DNA from: Gemmatimonadota bacterium
GTDB taxonomy: Bacteria > JAAXHH01
Assembly: GCA_026702745.1 (NCBI GenBank)
Contig: JAPPBT010000083.1
Coordinates: 1-64,000, forward strand
Direction of reading: 5' to 3'
DNA length: 64,000 nt
The notes beneath the pieces are model-generated. The model was not told the DNA's origin. It was given only the letters and a program-made list of their open reading frames with translations, and ran no database searches. Both the position numbers and the translations under genes were made by a program. Of this stretch, positions 1,761 to 59,966 are shown one piece after another (the stretch's first letter is position 1; each line of letters begins with the position of its first letter).

Positions 1761-2735
1761 TTGAGCACCGATCCCGTCGGTTTCGGCGTGATAGGGCTTG
1801 GCATGGGCGCGGTGCGCGCCCGTTTCATAAGCGAGACGGAGGGCGCGAGGCTCGTGGCGGTGGCCGAACTCGACGAGGAGCGGGGCCGGAAGGCCGAGGC
1901 AGAGTACGGCATCGACTGGTACCGGGACTACCGCCGCCTGCTCGACCGCGACGATATCGACGTCATCACGGTGATGACGCCCAGCGGTACCCATGCGGAC
2001 TTCGCCATCGCGGCCGCGAATGCGGGCAAGCACGTCATCACCACCAAGCCCGTGGAGGTCAGCCTGGAAAGGGCGGACCGGATGATCGCGGCCTGCCGCG
2101 AGGCCGGCGTGATCCTGGCCGTCGATTTCGAAGCGCGGTACATGGCCGACAACGTGCGCGTCAAGCAGGCCGTGGACGAAGGTCGCCTCGGGCGAATGAT
2201 CCTGGGCGAAGTGCGGCTGAAGTGGTTCAGGAACGATGCTTACTACGAGGGCTGGCACGGCACGTGGGCGTTGGACGGCGGCGGCTCGCTGATCAACCAG
2301 TCCGTGCACCAGATCGATTTGCTGGGCTGGTACATGGGCGAGGTCGAAAACGTCCAGGGACAGATCGGGGTGTTCAACCACGACATCGAATCCGAGGACC
2401 TAGGCATGGCCATGCTCCGGTTCAAGAGCGGCGCCGTCGGAACCATCCTGGGTACGACGACCTGTCCCGTCACCATCCCCGCCGGGGTGGAACTGCACGG
2501 CACGCAGGGGCTGGTCATAACGGCCGGAAACAAGGTCGCTGCCTGGCATGTCCCGGATGAATCGGCCGACGATCCCTTTCCCTACGAGGGTCCGCGCAAC
2601 GTGATCGAGGACATGGTCAGCCTGATCCGGCACGGCGGCACGCCCCGCATCACGGGCGAGGAAGCCAAGAAGTCCCTCGCGCTCATCCTCGCCATCTACG
2701 AATCTTCCCGAACGGGACAGGCCGTGTCCCTTTAA
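1761..2735 (+). CDS. Gfo/Idh/MocA family oxidoreductase
   Basis: A 324-residue NAD(P)-dependent sugar-type dehydrogenase. The N-terminal Rossmann motif is GFGVIGLGMGAVRA (about residues 6-19). The family motif for nicotinamide and substrate binding appears as KHVITTKPVEVSLERADRMI near residue 94, a variant of the usual EKP. The C-terminal half is the alpha/beta substrate domain (GGGSLINQSVHQIDLLGWYMG). The start is a TTG preceded by AAAAGGAG. It is the first clear gene of a plus-strand run leading into tyrS. The substrate is likely a sugar, inositol or related polyol but cannot be named. Confidence 0.87.
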   Translation: MSTDPVGFGVIGLGMGAVRARFISETEGARLVAVAELDEERGRKAEAEYGIDWYRDYRRLLDRDDIDVITVMTPSGTHADFAIAAANAGKHVITTKPVEVSLERADRMIAACREAGVILAVDFEARYMADNVRVKQAVDEGRLGRMILGEVRLKWFRNDAYYEGWHGTWALDGGGSLINQSVHQIDLLGWYMGEVENVQGQIGVFNHDIESEDLGMAMLRFKSGAVGTILGTTTCPVTIPAGVELHGTQGLVITAGNKVAAWHVPDESADDPFPYEGPRNVIEDMVSLIRHGGTPRITGEEAKKSLALILAIYESSRTGQAVSL

Positions 2736-2767
2736 CTCGTTGTCCCAGTAAATCGGAATCTCCCAGC

Positions 2768-4054
2768 ATGTCCAGTGCATTCGAAGTATTGAAGGAACGA
2801 GGGTTCGTCTCCCAGGTCACGAACGAAGAGGCCGTGTCCCGGGCCTTCAAAAACGAGACCGTCACCTGCTATATCGGGTTCGATCCGACGGGGCAGAGCC
2901 TGCACGTCGGCAATCTCGTCCAGATCATGATGCTGGCCCACGTGCAGCGCGGCGGTCACCGGCCCATCGCCCTGGTGGGCGGCGGCACGGCGATGATCCC
3001 CGATCCGAGCGGCAAGGACGCCCTGCGTCCCCAGCTTTCGGCGGAGGACATCGATCAGAACATCCTTCGGATCAAGAAGCAGCTGAGCAGCTACCTCGAT
3101 TTCGACGGCGGCCACGAGGGCCAGGCGGGCCACGAGGACCAGGCGGGTCACGAGGGCCAGGCGGGCCGGGCGTCGATGGTGAACAACGCGGACTGGCTGC
3201 GCACGCTGAACTACATCTCCTTCCTGCGGGAGATCGGAGAACATTTCAGCGTAAACCGGATGCTGACGGCCGAGGCCTACAGGCTGCGCATGGAGACGGG
3301 CCTCACCTTCCTGGAATTCAACTACCAGATCCTCCAGGCCTACGACTTCCTCATGCTCTTCCGGGAGTACGGCTGCACGATGCAGTTCGGGGGAGACGAC
3401 CAGTGGGGGAACATCGTGGCCGGCGTGGACCTGATCCGTCGCAAGGAACGGGCGGCCGCGCAGGCGATTACCACGCCCCTGCTGACCCTGTCGGACGGCA
3501 AGAAGATGGGCAAGACGGCCGAGGGCGCCGTCTGGCTCGATCCCGAGATGACCTCGCCCTACGACTTCTACCAGTTCTGGATCAACGTGGACGACCGGGA
3601 CGTGGAAGGCCTCCTGGGCCATTTTACCTTCCTGCCCATGGAGCAGGTGCGGGAACTCGGCGCCCTCGAGGGCGAGAAGATCCGCCACGCCAAGTCGGTC
3701 CTGGCCTTCGAGGCGACGAAGATTACCCACGGAGAGGAAGCGGCGACCCAGGCGGAGCGCGGCGCACGAAGCGTATTCGGCGGCGCGCAGGCGGGGGCGG
3801 AGGACGTGCCCACCGTGAAGATCGGCCGGGACCGCCTGGAGGCCGGCATCAACGTGGTCGACCTGTTCGTGGAAGCCGAACTGGGCAGGAGCAAAAGCGA
3901 GGTGCGCAGGCTGATCCAGCAGGGCGGCGCGTCCGTCAACGGCGAGCGCGTGGCCGCCATCGACCGGATGCTCGGCACGGGGGATCTCGACGACGAAGGC
4001 GTCCTGCTCCTGAGGGCGGGCAAGAAGCGGTTCCAGCGCGTCAAGACCGGGTAA
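2768..4054 (+). CDS. tyrS: Tyrosyl-tRNA synthetase
   Basis: A 428-residue class I synthetase that charges tRNA-Tyr. It has a HIGH-type motif HVGN near residue 45, the tyrosine pocket region (YDFLMLFREYGCTMQFGGDDQ), a KMSKS-type motif KKMGKT near residue 245, and a C-terminal S4 RNA-binding domain (EAELGRSKSEVRRLIQQGGA). Between SSYLDFD and MVNNADWL there is an inserted Gly/His/Glu/Gln-rich stretch of about 20 residues, encoded by an 18-base tandem repeat (3110-3163). Family members normally have only a few residues at this position. The rest of the protein looks intact. Confidence 0.96.
   Translation: MSSAFEVLKERGFVSQVTNEEAVSRAFKNETVTCYIGFDPTGQSLHVGNLVQIMMLAHVQRGGHRPIALVGGGTAMIPDPSGKDALRPQLSAEDIDQNILRIKKQLSSYLDFDGGHEGQAGHEDQAGHEGQAGRASMVNNADWLRTLNYISFLREIGEHFSVNRMLTAEAYRLRMETGLTFLEFNYQILQAYDFLMLFREYGCTMQFGGDDQWGNIVAGVDLIRRKERAAAQAITTPLLTLSDGKKMGKTAEGAVWLDPEMTSPYDFYQFWINVDDRDVEGLLGHFTFLPMEQVRELGALEGEKIRHAKSVLAFEATKITHGEEAATQAERGARSVFGGAQAGAEDVPTVKIGRDRLEAGINVVDLFVEAELGRSKSEVRRLIQQGGASVNGERVAAIDRMLGTGDLDDEGVLLLRAGKKRFQRVKTG
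3110..3163. repeat. 18-bp in-frame tandem repeat inside tyrS (3 copies)
   Basis: Three head-to-tail 18-base copies (3110-3127, 3128-3145, 3146-3163) differ from each other at only one or two positions. They encode a repeated GHEGQA/GHEDQA hexapeptide. The period is a multiple of three, so the frame is kept. The repeats lie at a surface linker just before the MVNNADWL segment. Confidence 0.9.
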
Positions 4055-41164: not shown

Positions 41165-42859
41165 TCAGTGCCCGTACTCCCGGATCAGTTTAATGATCTC
41201 CTCCTCTCCCTTCTCTGCGGCAATCGCCAGTGGTCGGGTCCAGGGCCAGTCGGCCAGGCCGGGGTCGGCGCCGTTTTCCAGAAACAGGCGGACCATGCCG
41301 GTCTGGCCGTGCGCGACCGCGACGGCCAGGGGCGTGCGGCCATCTTTCTCATCGAGTACGTTCACCGACGCGCCCCGTTCGATCAAGGATCGGGCGGTGG
41401 ATGCCCAGCCATGCCGGGCGCAGACGTGTAAGTAGGTCTGACCGTCGAAGGTGCGGCGGTTCGGATCCAGGCCCGCCGCGACCAGTTTGCCGGTGATCGC
41501 GGCGCTGTCGCCCCAGGCCGGCAGGTATTGAAGATCATCCAGGCGTCCGGGCGCTTCGGGATCATCGGCTAGCACGGAATCTATCAGCGTTTCATTTTCT
41601 GATTCCAGCACCTGCGCGAACAGGTAGGGGTCTCGTACCCTGCAGTGCTTGCCGTTCACCATGTCGCACAGCCTGTCTTCATTCAGGCTCCAGGACGGCG
41701 GGTAAACCGCGCCGTGGCGTATAAGCAGGTCCCTTATGACTTGATCGTTCGTGCCCGCGGCGCATCCGCAGGAGTCCAGTTCCACATTGGGATTGGCGCC
41801 ACTTTCGAGTAAAAGGTGGACCAAATCCGTCTGCTTGTGCCACACCGCCACGAAAAGCGCTTCGTCTACAAGGTGTTCGTCGGTACCCGCTTCGAGCAGC
41901 AGCTGAACGATGCGTTGGTGCCCTGCGCGCACCGCATAGGACAGGGGGGACATCAGCGCGGCATCGCGGTGCTTATCGGCGGGATGCGCTTCGAGGATCG
42001 ACACTGTCCATTCGTAGTCGCCCAGGTGGCAGGCCGCGGTGATGGCGTAATGCGCCCCGTTCTCCAACAGGAGTTCCGTAAGGCCTAGTTTCGGATCGGG
42101 CGGATCGAGTCCGAATCCGACATCGAACGACAGCGTCAGCGGGGTCTTGCCGTCCGCACGCCGATCATCGATGGGCAGGCCGTGGTCCAGAAACAGTTCG
42201 ATCAGGTCTTTCCGGCCGTTCAGTACGCCCAGGTGAACGCCGTTGTTGCCATCTTCGTCGGACCGATCAACAAGGTCGGGCTGTTCTCTCAGGATCGTCT
42301 CAACGCGATCGGCACTGCCGTCGCTTTTCACCAGCGCGGCGATCTCCCCGAACGCAGGATCGTAGCCAAAACGGGCGTTCATCGCGTTTTCAAGGACTTC
42401 TGTCACGTCAACGAAGCCGCGTTCCCTGGCGCCTTCGAGGAGACTCGCCCAGGTCGGACCGAAAATGTTGAGTCCGGGATCGGCACCTCGGTCGAGCAGC
42501 AGCTGCACGGCATCGACATGGCCGTGGCGCGCGGCCATGTGTACCGGTTGGGCGTACCAGTGCAGAGCGTTCACCAGGCGCGGATCTTCGTCGAGGAGCG
42601 CCTCAATGGCCACCAGATCGCCGGCAGCGCCGGCCTTGAACAGGAACCAGGCGGATTCGCCGTCGATCCAGTCGGTCTCGTCGCCCCAGCGGTCGTCGTA
42701 GTACGGACGGCCGTAATCGGGCCCCAGGCCTGGACAAATCATGAATCCGGTTCGGCAGGCGTCCTGGTGCACCCGTCCACAGAACTTCCCGGGAAACGCC
42801 ATGCGCGCGGCGCGGTCGGGGTACTTTCCCTTGATTTCCAGTGCGTTGCTCCGATCCAT
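41165..42859 (-). CDS. Ankyrin-repeat protein 4 (about 564 aa)
   Basis: After a 45-residue leader containing IKGKYPDRAARMAFPGKFCG and paired cysteines, the protein is built of ankyrin repeats: QPVHMAARHGHVDAVQLLLD, NGVHLGVLNGRKDLIELFLD, SPLSYAVRAGHQRIVQLLLE, TYLHVCARHGWASTARSLIE and TPLAVAVAHGQTGMVRLFLE. The start is uncertain: ATG at 42859 is used, but TTG at 42919 would overlap the stop of ankyrin gene 5 and couple the two. No good ribosome site is seen for either. Convergent with nucleotidyltransferase A. Confidence 0.84.
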   Translation of the reverse strand: MDRSNALEIKGKYPDRAARMAFPGKFCGRVHQDACRTGFMICPGLGPDYGRPYYDDRWGDETDWIDGESAWFLFKAGAAGDLVAIEALLDEDPRLVNALHWYAQPVHMAARHGHVDAVQLLLDRGADPGLNIFGPTWASLLEGARERGFVDVTEVLENAMNARFGYDPAFGEIAALVKSDGSADRVETILREQPDLVDRSDEDGNNGVHLGVLNGRKDLIELFLDHGLPIDDRRADGKTPLTLSFDVGFGLDPPDPKLGLTELLLENGAHYAITAACHLGDYEWTVSILEAHPADKHRDAALMSPLSYAVRAGHQRIVQLLLEAGTDEHLVDEALFVAVWHKQTDLVHLLLESGANPNVELDSCGCAAGTNDQVIRDLLIRHGAVYPPSWSLNEDRLCDMVNGKHCRVRDPYLFAQVLESENETLIDSVLADDPEAPGRLDDLQYLPAWGDSAAITGKLVAAGLDPNRRTFDGQTYLHVCARHGWASTARSLIERGASVNVLDEKDGRTPLAVAVAHGQTGMVRLFLENGADPGLADWPWTRPLAIAAEKGEEEIIKLIREYGH

Positions 42860-42915
42860 TGGCTGATCGACGCCGATCCGTTGCCCGCTCGACGCCGTAT
42901 GGCCGATTCTCGTTC

Positions 42916-43797
42916 TCAACCGGTGTTGCCGCCAAGTTCAACGAGCGCGTGGAACGCCGTCCGGCCCCGCGCGGAAGCGGCACAGTCCAGGGGCGTTCTG
43001 CCCCCATGGTCCCGCGCGTCCGGGTCGGCGCCGGCTTCGACCAACGCGCGGATCGTTTCTGCTCCCGTCCCTCTCGCGCAGATCAGGTGCAGCGCGGTAC
43101 GGCATTCACCATCCCGAAGGTTGGGATCGGCCCCGAAATTCAGGAGCAAACGGACCCGCTTGCCGTGTCCGTGATTGACGTCGTGGTGCAGGAGGGTGCG
43201 ACCGTCCACCCGCTCGTTGATGTCCCAGCCGTGCCGGACCAGCAGTTCGAGGCTCTCAGCCATCGATGCGCTCGGTGTATGCTTGAGTCCGCCCCGGTTC
43301 GGTTCCGCGCCGTTATCCAGCAGGAATCGCGCGCCTTCCAGGGTGCCGAATCGTAATTGCATCATGAGCGGGGTTTCGCCGGCGCACCCCACGGTAGTCA
43401 GGGCGTTCACGTCGGCCCCGCCGTCCAGCAGCAGCCTGCCGACGGGGACGGACCGCCAGTGATGTATCGCCAGGGCGATACCCCGGCCTCCGGTGAATTC
43501 GGCATGTACGAGCCTGGGATCTTCCGCCAGCCCGGACCGGACCGCTTCGATCCGGTCCGCCATCACGGCATCCCTGAAGGCGCGCACCCGTTCGGGAATC
43601 AGCAGGTCCGCGATCTCCCTATGGGTCGATTTATAGCAGTGGCCGCAGTTCCGGCGGACAAACTCCCGCAGGAGTGGGTGAGCCGCGATCCCGTCGTAGC
43701 CGGCAAGCCGTGGCCGGCTATCGATAAAGGCCCGTGCGGCTACCAGATCCCCGCGTTCGAACATCGCAAGGAAGGCTTCGTCAGATCCGGATTCCAT
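42916..43797 (-). CDS. Ankyrin-repeat protein 5 (293 aa)
   Basis: The N-terminal 75 residues form a helical region with RNCGHCYKSTHREIADLLIP (possible Cys/His cluster). Ankyrin repeats follow from about residue 85: IALAIHHWRSVPVGRLLLDG, GCAGETPLMMQLRFGTLEGA, RTLLHHDVNHGHGKRVRLLL, RTALHLICARGTGAETIRAL and GRTPLDCAASARGRTAFHAL. It lies directly upstream of ankyrin gene 4 on the same strand; the two are probably one transcription unit. Confidence 0.86.
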   Translation of the reverse strand: MESGSDEAFLAMFERGDLVAARAFIDSRPRLAGYDGIAAHPLLREFVRRNCGHCYKSTHREIADLLIPERVRAFRDAVMADRIEAVRSGLAEDPRLVHAEFTGGRGIALAIHHWRSVPVGRLLLDGGADVNALTTVGCAGETPLMMQLRFGTLEGARFLLDNGAEPNRGGLKHTPSASMAESLELLVRHGWDINERVDGRTLLHHDVNHGHGKRVRLLLNFGADPNLRDGECRTALHLICARGTGAETIRALVEAGADPDARDHGGRTPLDCAASARGRTAFHALVELGGNTG

Positions 43798-52007: not shown

Positions 52008-52802
52008 CTAGAGCAGACGGACGATGTCCTCGCCTCGCCCGACCCGCAGGGCAACTTCGCGCGGAGTTTCATCGGCGACGTTGGCCTGGGACCGGCTGCA
52101 GCCGGCGGCGATCAGCGCCTCGATCACTTCGGGTCTGTTCAACTGGGCGGCCATGTGCAGCGGCGCATCGCCCTGGTAGACGGGTCCCCAGTCCGACTGG
52201 ACGCCGACGCCCGCACGGTGGTTCGGATCCAGACCGGCTTCTTTTAAAATGTGTATGGTCTCGAGGTGATCGGCAACCTGTTCGTCGCCGGGTCTGACCT
52301 CCGCGGCGGAATGTAAGGCGGATGATCCGTTGTGGGGATTGATCTGACCGGGATCGGCGCCCAGCCGGATCTGCATCTTCAAACGGTCCGGATCGATCTG
52401 CCAGACCGCGAAATACACCGGCGCGCCCCCGTTGTCGTGCCACCGGTTGATGTCACCGCCATGGTCGATCAGGTACCGCGCCATGCGTTCTTCACGGCAT
52501 AGGCAGAGGGGCCGGCCGTGCACGTTTTCGATATTGGGGTCGGCGCCCGCTTCGACGAGCAGCTTCACCATGTCGAAGTTAGTCCTGCGTTCCACCTGTC
52601 GCCAGTCGATCTGCTGTTGCGGAGGACCGCTGACGGCGAGGGAAAGGGTATATACAGGGAAACGGCCCTCCCGGTAAGGATCGTCGAAGGCTTCGTGGCA
52701 GTAATTGGCCAGAGACGGATCTTCAGCCAGCATCTCGGCCATGAGGACGAGGTCTTCGGCGTACACTGCGCCGATCCACTGTTTTTCCTTGTCAAAGCGC
52801 AT
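52008..52802 (-). CDS. Ankyrin-repeat protein 7 (264 aa)
   Basis: Begins with a helix MRFDKEKQWIGAVYAEDLVL and LLVEAGADPNIENVHGRPLC, then GGDINRWHDNGGAPVYFAVW, GSSALHSAAEVRPGDEQVAD, GDAPLHMAAQLNRPEVIEAL and a last repeat ending ETPREVALRVGRGEDIVRLL. GGGAGCGG lies at a good distance before the ATG. It runs toward the SDR remnant and is divergent from the SRPBCC gene across a 245-base gap in which I see no clear promoter. Confidence 0.85.
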   Translation of the reverse strand: MRFDKEKQWIGAVYAEDLVLMAEMLAEDPSLANYCHEAFDDPYREGRFPVYTLSLAVSGPPQQQIDWRQVERRTNFDMVKLLVEAGADPNIENVHGRPLCLCREERMARYLIDHGGDINRWHDNGGAPVYFAVWQIDPDRLKMQIRLGADPGQINPHNGSSALHSAAEVRPGDEQVADHLETIHILKEAGLDPNHRAGVGVQSDWGPVYQGDAPLHMAAQLNRPEVIEALIAAGCSRSQANVADETPREVALRVGRGEDIVRLL

Positions 52803-53047: not shown

Positions 53048-53545
53048 ATGGCAGAACCTCTGGCCAGGATAACGTCGGAATTCTGTATCGACATCGAACG
53101 GGAGTACCCTTTTCCGATCGACCAGGTCTGGGCGGCCGTTACGACGGCGGAAGGGATCTCGGCCTGGATGAAGTACGAAGCCACGCTGGACCGCCGCCTG
53201 GGCGGCAGGATCTTCGTGGACTTCAAGTCGGAAGGAAACCTGGAAGGCACGGTCTGCGAATGGGTTCCAGAACGGGTTTTTGCCTATACCTGGGGCATTT
53301 CCGTGGTCCGGTGGGTACTCGAACCCTGTGAGGGCGGCACGCGTCTGCACTTCACGAATTCACACGTCACTCCGGACATCCTGATGGGATTCGCGGCGGG
53401 CTGGCACGCTTTCATCGACCACCTGGGTCCGTACCTGGCCGGGACCACCGTGGAAGACCGGTACGACGATCTCATGAAGGTCTATGTCGATCGATACGGC
53501 CACCTGGTCGCGGGCAACGACGACTCCGAGGAGAAAAAACCATGA
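53048..53545 (+). CDS. SRPBCC (AHSA1/START-like) domain protein
   Basis: A 165-residue helix-grip-fold protein. It opens IDIEREYPFPIDQVWAAVTT with AEGISAWM, typical of the AHSA1/CalC group, continues GGRIFVDFKSEGNLEGTVCE, and closes with a long helix GFAAGWHAFIDHLGPYLAGT. Such proteins bind hydrophobic ligands or, in the Aha1 group, stimulate Hsp90; no more specific role can be given. ATG 53048 is used; GTG 53039 is in frame. Its stop overlaps the start of ankyrin gene 8 by four bases, so the two are coupled. Confidence 0.84.
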   Translation: MAEPLARITSEFCIDIEREYPFPIDQVWAAVTTAEGISAWMKYEATLDRRLGGRIFVDFKSEGNLEGTVCEWVPERVFAYTWGISVVRWVLEPCEGGTRLHFTNSHVTPDILMGFAAGWHAFIDHLGPYLAGTTVEDRYDDLMKVYVDRYGHLVAGNDDSEEKKP

Positions 53546-55251
53546 CGAACGTGACGGAATCCGGCGCCTTCACCGTGGCCGAGCTTTGCGAAGCGTCGGC
53601 CGATGGAGATTTGAAGCGCATCAACTCTATTCTGGCCGTTGCACCCCACCTGGTGGAGGTGGACACGGCATCCTACGACGAGCACCGCGCCCTGCACCAC
53701 GCGGTGATGAACCGCCGGATCGAAGCCGTTTCCGCGCTAATGGCCGCGGGGGCCGACCCGAACCAGGGCGTCTATCCCCATCGGGATGCCTCCACGCCTC
53801 TGGTCATGGCCCGCGACCGCGGATTTGAAGACGTTGTAGAGACGATCAACGAGGAAATGGAGCGGCGGCGGGAAGCGAATCTCTGCCCCAATCTGACCGT
53901 CGCGCCGGAAGTGGTGCTCCTCGCCGAGAAAGTCGCGGAAGGCGACGTGGCCGGCGCGATGCGGGAAATCCACGCCGCGCCCGAACTCGCGGAGGCCTGC
54001 GACGAAGACGGAAACACGGTCCTGCACCACGCGGCCAGCTATGGTCATCCCGGACTCGTTCAAGCGCTCCTGGCGATCAAGGCCGACACAGGTAAGACCA
54101 ACCTCGAAGACCGGACTCCCCTCGAACTGGCCGTGGATCAAACGGCCGCAACGGACCGGCGGCGGTCGGAAGGGTGTTTCATGGCCGCCGGCATCCTTAT
54201 GAGCGCGGGTGCCCCGAGAAGCCTGCGCACGAACGTGATGCTGGGGGACGCGGAAGCTGTACGCGAAGTCGCGGCGAGTCACCCCGGCCTGTTCGAGCCG
54301 GATATTGAAACCGAAACCCACTTGCTGGGGGACGCGGTCCGCCACAATCGGTACGAAATGGTGAAGCTGCTGCTCGATCTCGGCATGGATCCCAATCAGC
54401 GGTACCGCATCCAGTCCCTGGAGGAAGAGACGTACAACTGGGGCGAACCGCTGTGGATCGCGGCCGGCGACGGCCAGCACGATATCGCGCGGTTGCTGCT
54501 CGAGCGGGGCGCCGACGCCAACGCCGCCGTGTATGCCTCCGGCAATCCCATGAGCCGCGCCTACAATAACCGGGACGAGCGTATGAAGCGGCTGCTGTAC
54601 CGGTACGGAGGATCGATGACGCCGGACGGCGCGGCCCTGGAATGCGATACCTCTGCGGCCGTCATGGCGCTGAACCTGCAGCCCGACCTGGTCGAGCAGA
54701 TCCTGTGGGGCGCCGCCTGCGGGGGCGATCCCAGCGTGGTCGGCGTGTGCCTGCGCAGACTGGAATGGGCCCTGGACGATCCACGGTGGTACAGACTCCT
54801 CATCCAGCCCATTGGCATCTGGCCCTGCGGTCCTCATCGCAAGTACCGGGATTTCGATCGATCCGTGTTTCCCGAGATCCTCCGCATGTTCCTCGATCAC
54901 GGGGTGGACCCGAACGTGAAGGGCCGGCGCGACACATCACTCCCGCACTACATCGCGGCTACGGGTAAAGTATGGGGCGAACCGAATTTGAAAGAGGACG
55001 AACGGATCGAGTTCGCCCGCCTGCTCCTCGAATACGGTGCTTCGCTCGACGGCAGGGATACGCTGCTTCAATCCACGCCCCTGGCTTGGGCAGCCCGCTG
55101 GGGCCGCACCGCGCTGGTCGACCTTTATCTCGAGCACGGCGCCGATCCACAGCCCGACGGGGAACCCTGGACCACGCCGCTCGCCTGGGCCGAACGGTAT
55201 GGGCACACTGCCATCGTGGAGCGACTGCGGCAAGCCGGCGCCGTTTCCTGA
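53542..55251 (+). CDS. Ankyrin-repeat protein 8 (569 aa)
   Basis: Ankyrin repeats run along the whole length, in two blocks around a less regular middle: HRALHHAVMNRRIEAVSALM, GNTVLHHAASYGHPGLVQAL, GEPLWIAAGDGQHDIARLLL, ADPNQGVYPHRDASTPLVMA, TPLAWAARWGRTALVDLYLE and TPLAWAERYGHTAIVERLRQ. No signal peptide. GAGGAG lies within the end of the SRPBCC gene. The last codons lie in a 31-base tandem duplication. It likely forms a complex with the SRPBCC protein, an inference from coupling only. Confidence 0.86.
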   Translation: MTNVTESGAFTVAELCEASADGDLKRINSILAVAPHLVEVDTASYDEHRALHHAVMNRRIEAVSALMAAGADPNQGVYPHRDASTPLVMARDRGFEDVVETINEEMERRREANLCPNLTVAPEVVLLAEKVAEGDVAGAMREIHAAPELAEACDEDGNTVLHHAASYGHPGLVQALLAIKADTGKTNLEDRTPLELAVDQTAATDRRRSEGCFMAAGILMSAGAPRSLRTNVMLGDAEAVREVAASHPGLFEPDIETETHLLGDAVRHNRYEMVKLLLDLGMDPNQRYRIQSLEEETYNWGEPLWIAAGDGQHDIARLLLERGADANAAVYASGNPMSRAYNNRDERMKRLLYRYGGSMTPDGAALECDTSAAVMALNLQPDLVEQILWGAACGGDPSVVGVCLRRLEWALDDPRWYRLLIQPIGIWPCGPHRKYRDFDRSVFPEILRMFLDHGVDPNVKGRRDTSLPHYIAATGKVWGEPNLKEDERIEFARLLLEYGASLDGRDTLLQSTPLAWAARWGRTALVDLYLEHGADPQPDGEPWTTPLAWAERYGHTAIVERLRQAGAVS

Positions 55252-55293: not shown

Positions 55294-56466
55294 TCACCCA
55301 ACTTGAGGGCCCGGCGGCCTGTCCCGGTCTGGATGCCAGTGGGTAGCGGCGACATGGGTGGTATCATCTTCCGTCGTGATGTAATAGACGGTCAGGATGG
55401 TACCATCACCCAACTCCGCCGAAATTGGATAGCCCACATCCGCGCCACCCATCCGGGGACGCTTCTCCGCCGGCCACGCACTCGATACACCACCGCCGTC
55501 ATCCCGAAGCACGTATTCGTGGTCCGTGTCCCAGGTGCGTCCGCCGTCCTCGCTGATCAGGGCCCGTATACCCATCGGGGCGCGGCGGTAGCCGTAGGTA
55601 CACAGAATCCGTCCGTCACGCAGTTTGAGCAGGTGGTTCGGATAGCCCTCGAAGGACGCTTCGACCGGGCTGGTCCAGGTCCTGCCGCCGTCTTCGGACC
55701 AGACTTCCAGGGTGTAAAACCGGTCCCTGTGATAGGTACGCTCAACGACAGCCGGATCCCAGTAACACGTCGAGCGGATATGGCCCAGGACGCGGTTCGG
55801 CTCCGTCTCCACCAGGGCCCATTCGCTGCCGATACGCGGCACCGCCTCATGGAGATGCCAGGTCTCCCCGTCATCGCTGGACCGGAACAGGAGACAATCG
55901 CTTTCGCCCCCGGCGCGTATCGTGTAAATGGGAAACAACCACGTACCGTCTTCAAGTATGATCCCGCGCGGAAAACCCACCGCGGTTTCATAGCCCGGTA
56001 CGGTCCAGGTACGCCGCTCCCACGTACGTCCTTCATCCCGGGATCGAATCACCGACAGTCGATGCCCAGTTATGATCAACTTTCCCGGAAAAAGGGACGT
56101 GTACGACTCGTCCTTTACAAAACCCAGGCCACGGGCTTCGGCTTCCTCCCGGCGGCCCAGTGTCCAGAATTCCTGTCCCACCGAGCCCACCGCCATTAAA
56201 GTGCCGTCGGGTAGAACGCCGGAGAGCCTGTCGTACCGTTCCCGCGGCGATGTACCCGGCCAGTTGGGCGGCAGCATAGGATCTTCCGCCGGTGTCCAGG
56301 TTCGTCCATCGTCTCGGGACTCAAGCGTCAGCCAGTCGCCCAGACCGTAATGATCCCCGAAAGGCGAAGAAATACAGCCGATCGAAAGCCGCCCGTCCGG
56401 TAGTTGATTCAATACGGGGAACGCGTTGTATCGTCCCTTTTCTTTCGTAACAATACGGTGTTGCAT
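55294..56466 (-). CDS. Sialidase-like BNR-repeat protein
   Basis: A 390-residue six-bladed propeller of the exo-alpha-sialidase type. Five Asp-box motifs (S-x-D-x-G-x-x-W) are visible: SRDDGRTWT, SRDEGRTWE, SSDDGETWH, SEDGGRTWT and SEDGGRTWD. There is no signal peptide with the ATG at 56466, which has AAGG upstream. A glycosidase role cannot be assumed because the arginine triad cannot be confirmed by eye; many such proteins bind or cleave other glycans. Convergent with ankyrin gene 8. Confidence 0.83.
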   Translation of the reverse strand: MQHRIVTKEKGRYNAFPVLNQLPDGRLSIGCISSPFGDHYGLGDWLTLESRDDGRTWTPAEDPMLPPNWPGTSPRERYDRLSGVLPDGTLMAVGSVGQEFWTLGRREEAEARGLGFVKDESYTSLFPGKLIITGHRLSVIRSRDEGRTWERRTWTVPGYETAVGFPRGIILEDGTWLFPIYTIRAGGESDCLLFRSSDDGETWHLHEAVPRIGSEWALVETEPNRVLGHIRSTCYWDPAVVERTYHRDRFYTLEVWSEDGGRTWTSPVEASFEGYPNHLLKLRDGRILCTYGYRRAPMGIRALISEDGGRTWDTDHEYVLRDDGGGVSSAWPAEKRPRMGGADVGYPISAELGDGTILTVYYITTEDDTTHVAATHWHPDRDRPPGPQVG

Positions 56467-56520
56467 GGTTAACCTTGATGATGCATCGATCGATCGGGAA
56501 ATGCGCGTGAAGCGAGGATG

Positions 56521-56549
56521 ATTTACTAGCGTAAGGCCTGTTGTGTCAA
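56521..56549 (-). promoter_or_regulatory. Promoter for the sialidase-like gene
   Basis: On the minus strand TTGACA (56549-56544), 17-base spacer, GTAAAT (56526-56521), a weak -10. It adjoins a perfect TATAAT of the divergent gene. Confidence 0.45.
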
Positions 56550-56555
56550 TATAAT
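56550..56555 (+). promoter_or_regulatory. Perfect -10 element for the gene at 56607
   Basis: TATAAT, directly adjacent to the divergent TTGACA. No consensus -35 lies at 16-18 bases upstream, so activity may need a regulator. The predicted leader is about 45 nt. Confidence 0.4.
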
Positions 56556-56606
56556 TCGGGTGTAACGGCCCACTGCGCTGACACCTGGCGTGCATCCAGG
56601 AATACC

Positions 56607-57299
56607 ATGGAAAGCATTCCCCATCCCCACAGTCTCTCCATAACGCTGGACCGTATCAACGAACGGCACTTCCTCGGCCATTCGTTCGACCGGATCGAAG
56701 CGGAACGCACCCTGGACTGGCTGGCCGGTCGTTTCGGCTCGGATTCCGCCTATGCCGGGACGTTCGGCCTTACGGAACAGGACAGCCGGTCCAAAATCTA
56801 TACCTTTACGGGTGAACGGCTTCAATCGGCGTCGCTGCGGCATATCCAGGCCGAAGAAACCTGCCGGGCGATCATCCTGCTGAACCGCCGTGTCGGGCGC
56901 GACCGGCTTCCCGAACTCGAGGCGGCAACGTCCAAATTGCTCGAGTGTTTCGAGGTGGCGCACGCGAAGGGTAGACTGCGGGGAACGTTCTGCTGCGGAC
57001 CTTGCACAGTCTCTCTCTGGCGCCACATGGCCATGGGTGGCCTCGGCGACTACGCCCGTCACCTGGATGAAGGCATCGGCGTATTGACGAGCCATGAAGA
57101 TGGGGCGGGTACGTGGCGCCGGTTCCCATTCTACTACACCCTGCTTGCTTTGTCTGAGGTCGACACGCCAAACGCCCGACGCGCCGTTTCCTACGCCTTG
57201 CCGGAATGCGAGCGCCGCGTGAAGTCCATCCGGCGAAATCCCCCGTTTGGCACTCGCAGATACCGGTTGTTATCCCGGATCCTCGATCAAAACCCTTAG
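56607..57299 (+). CDS. Hypothetical protein (230 aa)
   Basis: I do not recognise this protein. It is soluble and mainly helical, with a Cys cluster FCCGPCTVSLWRHMAMGG in the middle (about residues 132-149) and later helices YYTLLALSEVDTPNARRAVS and ECERRVKSIRRNPP. The helical repeats recall prenyltransferase- or terpenoid-cyclase-like alpha/alpha barrels, but this is weak. The ATG at 56607 has CCAGG upstream. The ankyrin gene 9 start lies 57 bases after the stop, so they may be co-transcribed. Confidence 0.7.
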   Translation: MESIPHPHSLSITLDRINERHFLGHSFDRIEAERTLDWLAGRFGSDSAYAGTFGLTEQDSRSKIYTFTGERLQSASLRHIQAEETCRAIILLNRRVGRDRLPELEAATSKLLECFEVAHAKGRLRGTFCCGPCTVSLWRHMAMGGLGDYARHLDEGIGVLTSHEDGAGTWRRFPFYYTLLALSEVDTPNARRAVSYALPECERRVKSIRRNPPFGTRRYRLLSRILDQNP

Positions 57300-57355
57300 G
57301 CACCCACGCATCCATGCATCCATGCATCGAACAGGACGGAAGAGAGGATAGCCCG

Positions 57356-58393
57356 ATGTCCGAATCCCGTGAACCCTCCCCCCAAGCGGACTCGCACTTC
57401 GGTGCGGCCATGAAACGACTGCGAACCGCCATCTGGCAGATGGATCCGGCCGGGGTCGAAGCAGCCCTTTCCCAGGTACCTGGTATAGTCAATGATGCCA
57501 TGGACCATCCGCGCTGGGGAGGCCGACCCACCCCCATCCAGCTGGCGGCGGAACGCGGGGACACGAAGGTCATCGAAATACTGTTGCGCAACGGGGCGGA
57601 CCCGAACGGCGGAACGGACACCTACGGAGGCTGGACCGCACTCCACCTCGCGGCCCACTGGGGACACACGGATGCAGCCGAAACGTTGCGGTCATTCGGC
57701 GCGAACGTGGATCTGCATGCCGCGTGCCTGCTGGATGATGTCGCCGCCATCCGGGCGATACTGGCGGAAGATCCAGGCGCAGCATCCCGTCCGGCATTGG
57801 GAGGAGAGCCACCCCTTCACGTAGCGGTGTCTGCGGAGACGGCCGAGGTTCTGCTGGACCACGGTGCGCGGCTGGACACGACCGATAGCGAAGACAACAC
57901 GCCGCTGGGTGCGGCGCTGGCCCGCGGTGAACGTTGTCGCAGGTTGGCAGAATTCCTGATCGACCGGGGCGCGCCGGCGGATCCCTGCCAGCTCGCCGCC
58001 CTGGGAAGGACAGACCAGCTCGGGCGGCTTTGCCGGGCCGATGCAGGCACGTCGGCGTACGAAGGGAAGATCGGGGTTCATGCCGTGGTGGGGACGCCCT
58101 TGCACGCCGCGGTGCAGCATGTACGGGCGGAAACGGTCAGGATTCTGCTTGACTGCGGCGCGGATGCGAACGCCCGGGCGGACTCCGGGCAGACGCCCCT
58201 GCATTTATGCGGAGATGCCGGGATCGCGAAGATGCTCGTCGATGCCGGCGCCGATCCGGGTGCCACAGACGATGAACACGGCACGACGCCACTGGTATGG
58301 GCGGAAGTGGGGATTGAAATCCACGGCACGACGCCGGAGCGCGTGGCCCTGGTAACGTACCTGAAGGATATTACGCCGGCACGGAAGGACTAG
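57356..58393 (+). CDS. Ankyrin-repeat protein 9 (345 aa)
   Basis: After a 20-residue polar leader the protein is ankyrin repeats: PTPIQLAAERGDTKVIEILL with GADPNGGTDTYGG, WTALHLAAHWGHTDAAETLR, EPPLHVAVSAETAEVLLDHG, NTPLGAALARGERCRRLAEF, TPLHAAVQHVRAETVRILLD and QTPLHLCGDAGIAKMLVDAG. AGAGAGGA precedes the ATG at 57356. Its 3' end overlaps the convergent globin-ankyrin gene by 23 bases. Confidence 0.87.
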   Translation: MSESREPSPQADSHFGAAMKRLRTAIWQMDPAGVEAALSQVPGIVNDAMDHPRWGGRPTPIQLAAERGDTKVIEILLRNGADPNGGTDTYGGWTALHLAAHWGHTDAAETLRSFGANVDLHAACLLDDVAAIRAILAEDPGAASRPALGGEPPLHVAVSAETAEVLLDHGARLDTTDSEDNTPLGAALARGERCRRLAEFLIDRGAPADPCQLAALGRTDQLGRLCRADAGTSAYEGKIGVHAVVGTPLHAAVQHVRAETVRILLDCGADANARADSGQTPLHLCGDAGIAKMLVDAGADPGATDDEHGTTPLVWAEVGIEIHGTTPERVALVTYLKDITPARKD

Positions 58394-59966
58394 CGGCTTC
58401 GAACATGGAGACGATGCGTTCCTTGTCGGGGCGCTTCATCCGGCGGGCGATCCCAAGAGGCGACTTGCCCAGTCTATCTTCAAGGGTCGGATCCGCGCCG
58501 TGGGCCAACAACAGTGCCACCGATCTCACCATGTCCGCCCGTGGACCCGCCTTCAGCGCGTAAAACAGGGGGGTCTCGCCCTTTTCGCTCCGCCCGTCGA
58601 CCGGGGCGCCGTTGTCCAGCAGCACCTCCATTGCTTCGGTAAACCCGGCCTTGGCGGCAAAGTGCAGGGCGCCGGCCCCGCGCAATACCGTGTCGATCCG
58701 GGCCCCTTTGTCCAGCAGGGCCTGCACGTACCAGGGATCGTCCCGCTGGCTGTTGTTCCCCGTACAGGCCGTCCAGATCCAATTACCTTCGGGATAGTTG
58801 ACGTCGGCGCCGCTGGCGATAAGCAGGGCCGACTCTTCTTCGTCGAGTACCCATCTGCCGCAGCCGATCCGGGTGGCGTCCGCGCCATGTTCCAGCACCA
58901 GCCGAAGCAGTTCGGTCCGCCGTCGGCCGGCGGCGTAACTGACCAGGGCCGTGCTGTTTACGCCGACCCTGGCGCCGCGGTCGAACAGCATGCTCGCGAC
59001 TTCTATGTGTCCGCCGTACACCGCGTGATGCAGCGGGGTAACGGGTAGCAGGTCGCAGGCGGGGTCGTGGGCATTGACCAGTCCGGGCGCTGCATCCAGC
59101 AGTTCGCCAACCCGGTCCAGGTCACCTAGAAAACTGGCGCTGAAGACATCATACACCGCACCCCGCTCCAGCAGGAACGCGGCCGTTTCGTCCTTCTTCT
59201 TGCTAAGCGCGGCACAGTGGGCGGTCATCATGATGTCGCTCGAATCGGCAAACGGTATGTTCACGTCCACCCCCCGGTCGAGCAGCACGGCCGCTACCTT
59301 TGTGTGGCCCCGCAACGCTGCCTCTCCAAGCAGGATTGCGCTGTGACGGGGGTCGTCCAGCACTGAAGCGTCCTCGTCCAGGAATCGCTCAAGGCCTTCC
59401 AACTGGCCCCTGGCCGCCATTCTCGCCGGTACTCGCCATCGTTTCTCCCGGTGACATCTCATTTCCCACCCGTGCCGGGCGGGTTCCCGCTCGTTGACGA
59501 GGCCGTGGGCAAGGGGCCGGAGCACGTGCAGTACTTCGGCAACGAGCGTTTCGTCACCAATGTGATCCCGCAGCGAAGCGGCCATGTGCGTGAGCCACCG
59601 GTCGGCGGATGCACGGGTGATGTGAATGTGACCGTGCCGGTTTTTCAGACCGCCGTAGGCGTGGTGCCGCGTGTAGCCCGGTTCGCCGCCCATCCACTCC
59701 ACCATGAACGCCTTCTGCTTCATGCGTTCGGGCGCCAGCGTACGGGTGAACATGGGCCGTAGCTCGGCGTCCTTTTCGATACGGTCATACAGGCCGTCAA
59801 TGATGCCCGCGACCACGGATCGGCCGCCGACGCGCTCAAAGAGGGTCGGATCGGGTCTCAAGGTTGAAGCGAGCCCGCCCCGGTGGGCCAGCAGGTCCTG
59901 GATCCGGGACGAATCGGTGGATGCTGGAGATGAAGTAGATGAAGGAGACGCTGGTGATGGCGTCAT
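58371..59966 (-). CDS. Truncated haemoglobin (group 2)-ankyrin fusion protein (ankyrin protein 10)
   Basis: A 531-residue fusion. Residues 1-35 are Ser/Pro/Thr-rich. Residues about 41-160 match a group-2 truncated haemoglobin: LFERVGGRSVVAGIIDGLYD with the B10 tyrosine at 60, the WMGG segment at 91-94, the proximal F8 histidine in LKNRHGH (His111), and the G8 tryptophan in ADRWL (Trp124). From about residue 185 come ankyrin repeats (LGEAALRGHTKVAAVLLDRG, TPLHHAVYGGHIEVASMLFD, GALHFAAKAGFTEAMEVLLD, ETPLFYALKAG). A haem-based gas or redox sensor that controls protein binding is plausible but inferred. Divergent from a nucleotidyltransferase-fold gene. Confidence 0.88.
   Translation of the reverse strand: MTPSPASPSSTSSPASTDSSRIQDLLAHRGGLASTLRPDPTLFERVGGRSVVAGIIDGLYDRIEKDAELRPMFTRTLAPERMKQKAFMVEWMGGEPGYTRHHAYGGLKNRHGHIHITRASADRWLTHMAASLRDHIGDETLVAEVLHVLRPLAHGLVNEREPARHGWEMRCHREKRWRVPARMAARGQLEGLERFLDEDASVLDDPRHSAILLGEAALRGHTKVAAVLLDRGVDVNIPFADSSDIMMTAHCAALSKKKDETAAFLLERGAVYDVFSASFLGDLDRVGELLDAAPGLVNAHDPACDLLPVTPLHHAVYGGHIEVASMLFDRGARVGVNSTALVSYAAGRRRTELLRLVLEHGADATRIGCGRWVLDEEESALLIASGADVNYPEGNWIWTACTGNNSQRDDPWYVQALLDKGARIDTVLRGAGALHFAAKAGFTEAMEVLLDNGAPVDGRSEKGETPLFYALKAGPRADMVRSVALLLAHGADPTLEDRLGKSPLGIARRMKRPDKERIVSMFEAASPSVPA

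Follow-up and report, generated by a model that had tools for sequence, protein, structure and literature searches.

A truncated haemoglobin joined to ankyrin repeats in two bacterial phyla, a candidate for haem-based sensing through protein contacts

Truncated globins are widespread, yet their roles are largely unsettled. In a 64,000-nucleotide stretch of DNA from a Gemmatimonadota bacterium (GCA_026702745.1, contig JAPPBT010000083.1, positions 1 to 64,000; hereafter the window), a preliminary description made from the sequence alone pointed to one reading frame that joins such a globin to a long series of ankyrin repeats. The locus raises the question of whether this is a genuine protein and, if so, what a haem domain could be doing on a protein-binding scaffold. 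A permanent join to a partner-binding scaffold, kept in two phyla, offers a direct handle on the role of truncated globins. The GTDB lineage of the window, JAAXHH01, to which contig names in the phylum also point, is listed as Candidatus Ifutiota, with genomes from freshwater, marine, sponge and hypoxic seawater habitats (PMC11382960).

One gene with a group II-type globin and an ankyrin module

The fusion gene (Table 1) is an uninterrupted frame of 531 codons from ATG, with nearly equal third-position G+C in its two parts (globin 0.79, ankyrin 0.77), as expected for one gene. A scan of GTDB species genomes recovered the same full-length frame in seven other named MAG records at 77–89% identity. 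In one genome (G011) the gene is divided between two contig ends, and in another (G005, locus L008, JAAXHH010000014.1) there is a frameshift at the C-terminus. Apart from Bac_globin and ankyrin families, no further Pfam domains were found in the window protein (P0001). The architecture of globin plus ankyrin repeats in one frame, as first described, is thus upheld by the open frame, the Pfam matches and the orthologues. A sequencing error joining two separate genes had been named as one way in which this could be wrong. Nothing beyond the single window speaks for a sequencing or assembly error, and the identical join in many independent assemblies and in two phyla rules it out with near certainty.

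Table 1. Features of the fusion gene and further ankyrin-repeat frames in the window
Feature	Position	Strand	Evidence
Whole fusion gene, globin then ankyrin, 531 aa	58371..59966	-	Open frame, Pfam, full-length orthologues
Conserved leader motif HRGG codons, residues 28-31 (approximate), directly N-terminal of globin	59876..59885	-	Six-protein alignment
Truncated globin domain, residues 41-156	59499..59846	-	PF01152 match, alignments, fold match
Ankyrin-repeat solenoid, residues about 178-525	58392..59435	-	Pfam ankyrin families; free-standing homologues start at about the same residue
Further ankyrin-repeat ORF	41165-42919	-	
Further ankyrin-repeat ORF	42916-43797	-	
Further ankyrin-repeat ORF	52008-52802	-	
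Further ankyrin-repeat ORF	53542-55251	+	
Further ankyrin-repeat ORF	57206-58393	+	

The globin domain scored 65.6 bits for Bac_globin (PF01152; cut-off 21), and a phmmer search of the first 177 residues against PDB sequences placed group II truncated globins on top (2bkm, E = 1.6e-17, then 5d1v and 1ux8). In the alignment to group II structures the pocket residues are Tyr60 (B10), Phe73 (CD1), His111 (F8) and Trp124 (G8), and counting positions along the same alignment puts Glu80 at E7 and Gln84 at E11. None of the aligned fused proteins departs from Tyr B10, His F8 or Trp G8. A full-length AlphaFold model, built with eight close sequences, gave a fair prediction across much of the ankyrin repeats but a poor one for the globin, hence the globin was modelled separately (mean pLDDT 76.7, with a weak stretch between helices E and G). 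The best Foldseek matches of this apo model were group II truncated globins (TM-score 0.65–0.70, probability 1.00). The preliminary description had assigned the domain to group 2 with Tyr60 at B10, proximal His111 and Trp124 at G8, and had proposed structure prediction as a check, with a model lacking a haem pocket as a refutation. That outcome was not seen: family match, phmmer search and fold matches all agree with the assignment, each of the three residues aligns to its group II counterpart, and the globin-only model, although made without haem, resembles group II truncated haemoglobin structures.

The matched structures, Bacillus subtilis YjbI (1ux8) and the Geobacillus (2bkm) and Chloroflexus (5d1v) proteins, share B10 Tyr, CD1 Phe, F8 His and G8 Trp with the window globin at about 30–34% identity in the fold match. 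They are single domains, however, whereas the window globin continues into about 350 residues of ankyrin repeats, and in a globin tree the fused globins form a group of their own. This group stands apart from group-1-like sequences and has no settled place among those of group II.

Several ankyrin Pfam families matched up to the C-terminus, with Ank_2 (98.8 bits), Ank_4 and Ank above their cut-offs, and the fold matches of the full-length model were ankyrins and DARPins. In a second phylum, 58 of 85 genomes encode free-standing ankyrin relatives about 390 aa long. These align to residues about 178–523 at 32–40% identity, with motifs common to both, and represent the same module as in the fusion but with no globin. 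Judged from such alignments, the ankyrin half is a defined family or module and not a random repeat array. A match to the ankyrin part on a Thermus plasmid was set aside, as no globin was present.

Distribution, origin and selection

The window's phylum was covered by 16 genomes, of which 14, the window's own among them, carry the fusion. They comprise the whole genus together with one genome of the same family (G001, 56% identity) and one of the same order (G014, 53%). The globin query matched 15 of the 16, G013 solely via an unrelated stand-alone globin; G013 and G015 possess other globins and no fusion. In the second phylum two genomes of a single genus (G390 and G391) carry the fusion, with Bac_globin at 63 and 56 bits, respectively, and ankyrin matches in both. 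Across about 275 residues from the N-terminal end of the fusion they are 35% identical to the window protein, and at this distance none of the four pocket residues (Tyr B10, Phe CD1, His F8, Trp G8) has changed. The leader residues HRG (H, R and the first G) are identical in six of six aligned fused proteins, second phylum included. Positions E7 and E11 are Gly and Leu in the second phylum versus Glu and Gln in the window protein, hence ligand chemistry may differ between the phyla.

Bac_globin is otherwise almost missing from the second phylum (3 of 85 genomes). Such rarity would be expected if a ready-made fusion had been transferred between phyla, and loss elsewhere may also account for it. 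In a maximum-likelihood globin tree the nine fused domains formed one group (support 97/89) against 24 stand-alone globins, and in a tree of the ankyrin module a branch with support 100/99 separated the ten fused modules from 25 free-standing homologues. As the fused domains are a single group in both trees, one fusion event can account for all copies, which is the simplest explanation from these sequences, in trees where some rows are long-branched and the root and direction of transfer are unsure. Two separate fusions, one per phylum, are disfavoured, since both domain trees place the fused proteins on one branch side.

Outside the two phyla, no globin-ankyrin proteins were found in domain-wide samples of 384 and 387 genomes, which partly overlap and cover large phyla thinly, or in a PF01152 survey of the first sample. 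Rarer or independent fusions may exist in other large, thinly sampled phyla. None was seen on plasmids or viral contigs. Four genomes (G260, G110, G100 and G043) have long PF01152 frames, in each case ordinary globins inside a spurious open frame, and candidates from G142 and G278 contain tandem globins instead. The latter proteins (L085 in G142, 2209–3342; L086 in G278) have two truncated-globin domains in tandem and what looks like a lipoprotein or export signal; G142 carries two such genes side by side.

Comparison of the window gene with seven orthologues gave dN/dS of 0.11–0.18 for the globin, 0.14–0.23 for the ankyrin part and 0.3–0.9 for the N-terminal tail. On these estimates the globin and ankyrin domains are under purifying selection and the N-terminal tail is nearly free of it.

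Genomic neighbourhood

Gene order is largely kept within the genus, running uvrA, nucleotidyltransferase gene, fusion, ankyrin gene and further genes. No conserved neighbours were found outside the genus: G001, G014, G390 and G391 each have other flanking genes, hence the neighbourhood names no partner or pathway, and the idea that the fusion shares a conserved operon with its partner was dropped because the genus gene order is absent in these four genomes. Ferrochelatase is encoded in all 11 genomes of the genus, and no globin of the PF00042 type was found in the genus.

Three of the five other ankyrin frames in the window lie within 8 kb of the fusion, and one of these (57206-58393), on the opposite strand, is convergent with the fusion gene, their ends sharing 23 bases. 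Amid the ankyrin genes is a gene for a BNR-repeat (sialidase-like) protein (55294–56595, minus strand), which is kept with them in the genus. Furthermore, four genomes of the window's genus (G010, G003, G007 and G009; L089, L090, L091 and L092) encode a second truncated globin, apparently secreted and degenerate, whose low-complexity tail is very acidic. In G001 a methionine sulphoxide reductase gene (L073:4824–5474) and the fusion are convergent neighbours, in that genome only.

The free-standing ankyrin gene has a recurrent context of its own. In family f42 of the second phylum it comes after at least one PhyH-like gene in 18 of 19 genomes examined, and an aminoglycoside 3-N-acetyltransferase-like gene is often next, followed by a further conserved gene (L080, L119-L122, L095-L113). 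PhyH proteins are Fe(II)/2-oxoglutarate dioxygenases. As the pairing comes from one bacterial family it counts as one observation, and it hints that the ankyrin module may be associated with oxygen-linked chemistry; no PhyH neighbours of fused genes were found in the stretches examined. There is a small chance that the module is an adaptor of O2- or NO-responsive pathways, acting either in cis with a globin (in the window's phylum and one genus of the other), where the fusion would be a gas sensor with ankyrin output, or in an operon with PhyH-type dioxygenases and no globin.

Possible function and relation to known systems

The reading that we favour, tentatively, is a haem switch in which a change of ligand or redox state at the globin alters the docking of a partner on the ankyrin repeats. 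The protein has two domains and is probably cytoplasmic. Its N-terminal group II-type globin would bind haem and thereby a small ligand, most likely O2 or NO, and its C-terminal ankyrin solenoid would bind a conserved protein partner. A change in ligand or redox state could then change how the ankyrin face docks that partner, such that gas or redox state would be read out through protein contact and without an attached enzyme. The points in favour are the intact fusion with its single origin, conservation in two phyla, unchanged pocket residues, the group II fold matches, constraint on both halves, an orthologous ankyrin module with its PhyH-linked context elsewhere and the presence of ferrochelatase in a genus where no PF00042 globin was found. 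Against it count the E7/E11 difference between the phyla and the want of any conserved neighbour beyond the genus that would indicate a pathway. We infer haem binding, ligand, partner and switching alike from sequence, and nothing found conflicts with the gas or redox sensor acting via protein contacts that was first proposed.

The conservation would be equally expected of a globin that catalyses or scavenges. The globin might be a NO dioxygenase, a peroxidase or a scavenger of sulphide or peroxynitrite, with the ankyrin part merely positioning it at the protein that it serves or protects and no signalling involved. This is a serious though lesser possibility. Group II globins with a pocket of this kind are credited with O2 and NO chemistry, no canonical globin besides the fusion turned up in the window's genome, and the genus yielded none of the flavohaemoglobin type. 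The methionine sulphoxide reductase gene beside the fusion in G001 would also suit such chemistry, but it is limited to one genome, and no reductase partner gene lies near the fusion.

A role directed at a host or community is unlikely. Here the ankyrin part would act on a eukaryotic host, as in other sponge-associated bacteria, with the globin as cargo or survival aid. At least five further ankyrin genes in the window would fit, as would the apparent sponge origin of some related genomes (from record titles and the habitat list in PMC11382960) and the recurrence of ankyrin proteins as a theme in the sponge-symbiont literature. However, the gene is slowly evolving and constrained and there is no hydrophobic export signal at the N-terminus of the fusion, which makes a sponge-host role less likely, and homologous ankyrin modules are found in operon-like order with metabolic genes. 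Less probable still is a degenerate globin that keeps its fold, has lost haem binding and structurally caps the ankyrin solenoid. The degenerate and secreted appearance of the truncated-globin relatives in the genus (L089-L092), and a structure model made without haem, leave some room for it, but the four hallmark pocket residues are unchanged across two phyla, while the degenerate type has lost them. On the sequence evidence the haem switch thus ranks as most likely, with tethered haem chemistry close behind and the host role below both.

Literature searches yielded no described bacterial globin-ankyrin protein, in line with the initial impression that no system of this kind had been described. 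The nearest published case is KnNOS2 of the alga Klebsormidium nitens, a eukaryotic NO synthase in which the globin is of the M family, with distal and proximal His, and ANK is merely a motif (PMC8728061). Unlike KnNOS2, the fusion chain contains no NO synthase domain in the Pfam search. A further chimeric bacterial truncated globin was seen in our own samples (L088 in G260), with what looks like an ABM-like monooxygenase domain; there the partner is enzyme-like and on the N-terminal side, and the globin sits on a distant branch. In globin-coupled sensors the globin belongs to a different family and the output is an enzymatic or a chemoreceptor domain. The fusion differs in pairing a truncated globin with a binding scaffold, and no sensor-type (protoglobin-like) globin domain was found in it, Bac_globin being the sole Pfam globin match at E up to 1. 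Haem-based sensing would gain a new kind of output if the switch is real. Chimeric globins as such are well known, and globin-coupled sensors likewise use a globin at the N-terminus to drive an output domain at the C-terminus (PMC1457004); the new element here is the ankyrin partner domain on a chimeric truncated globin.
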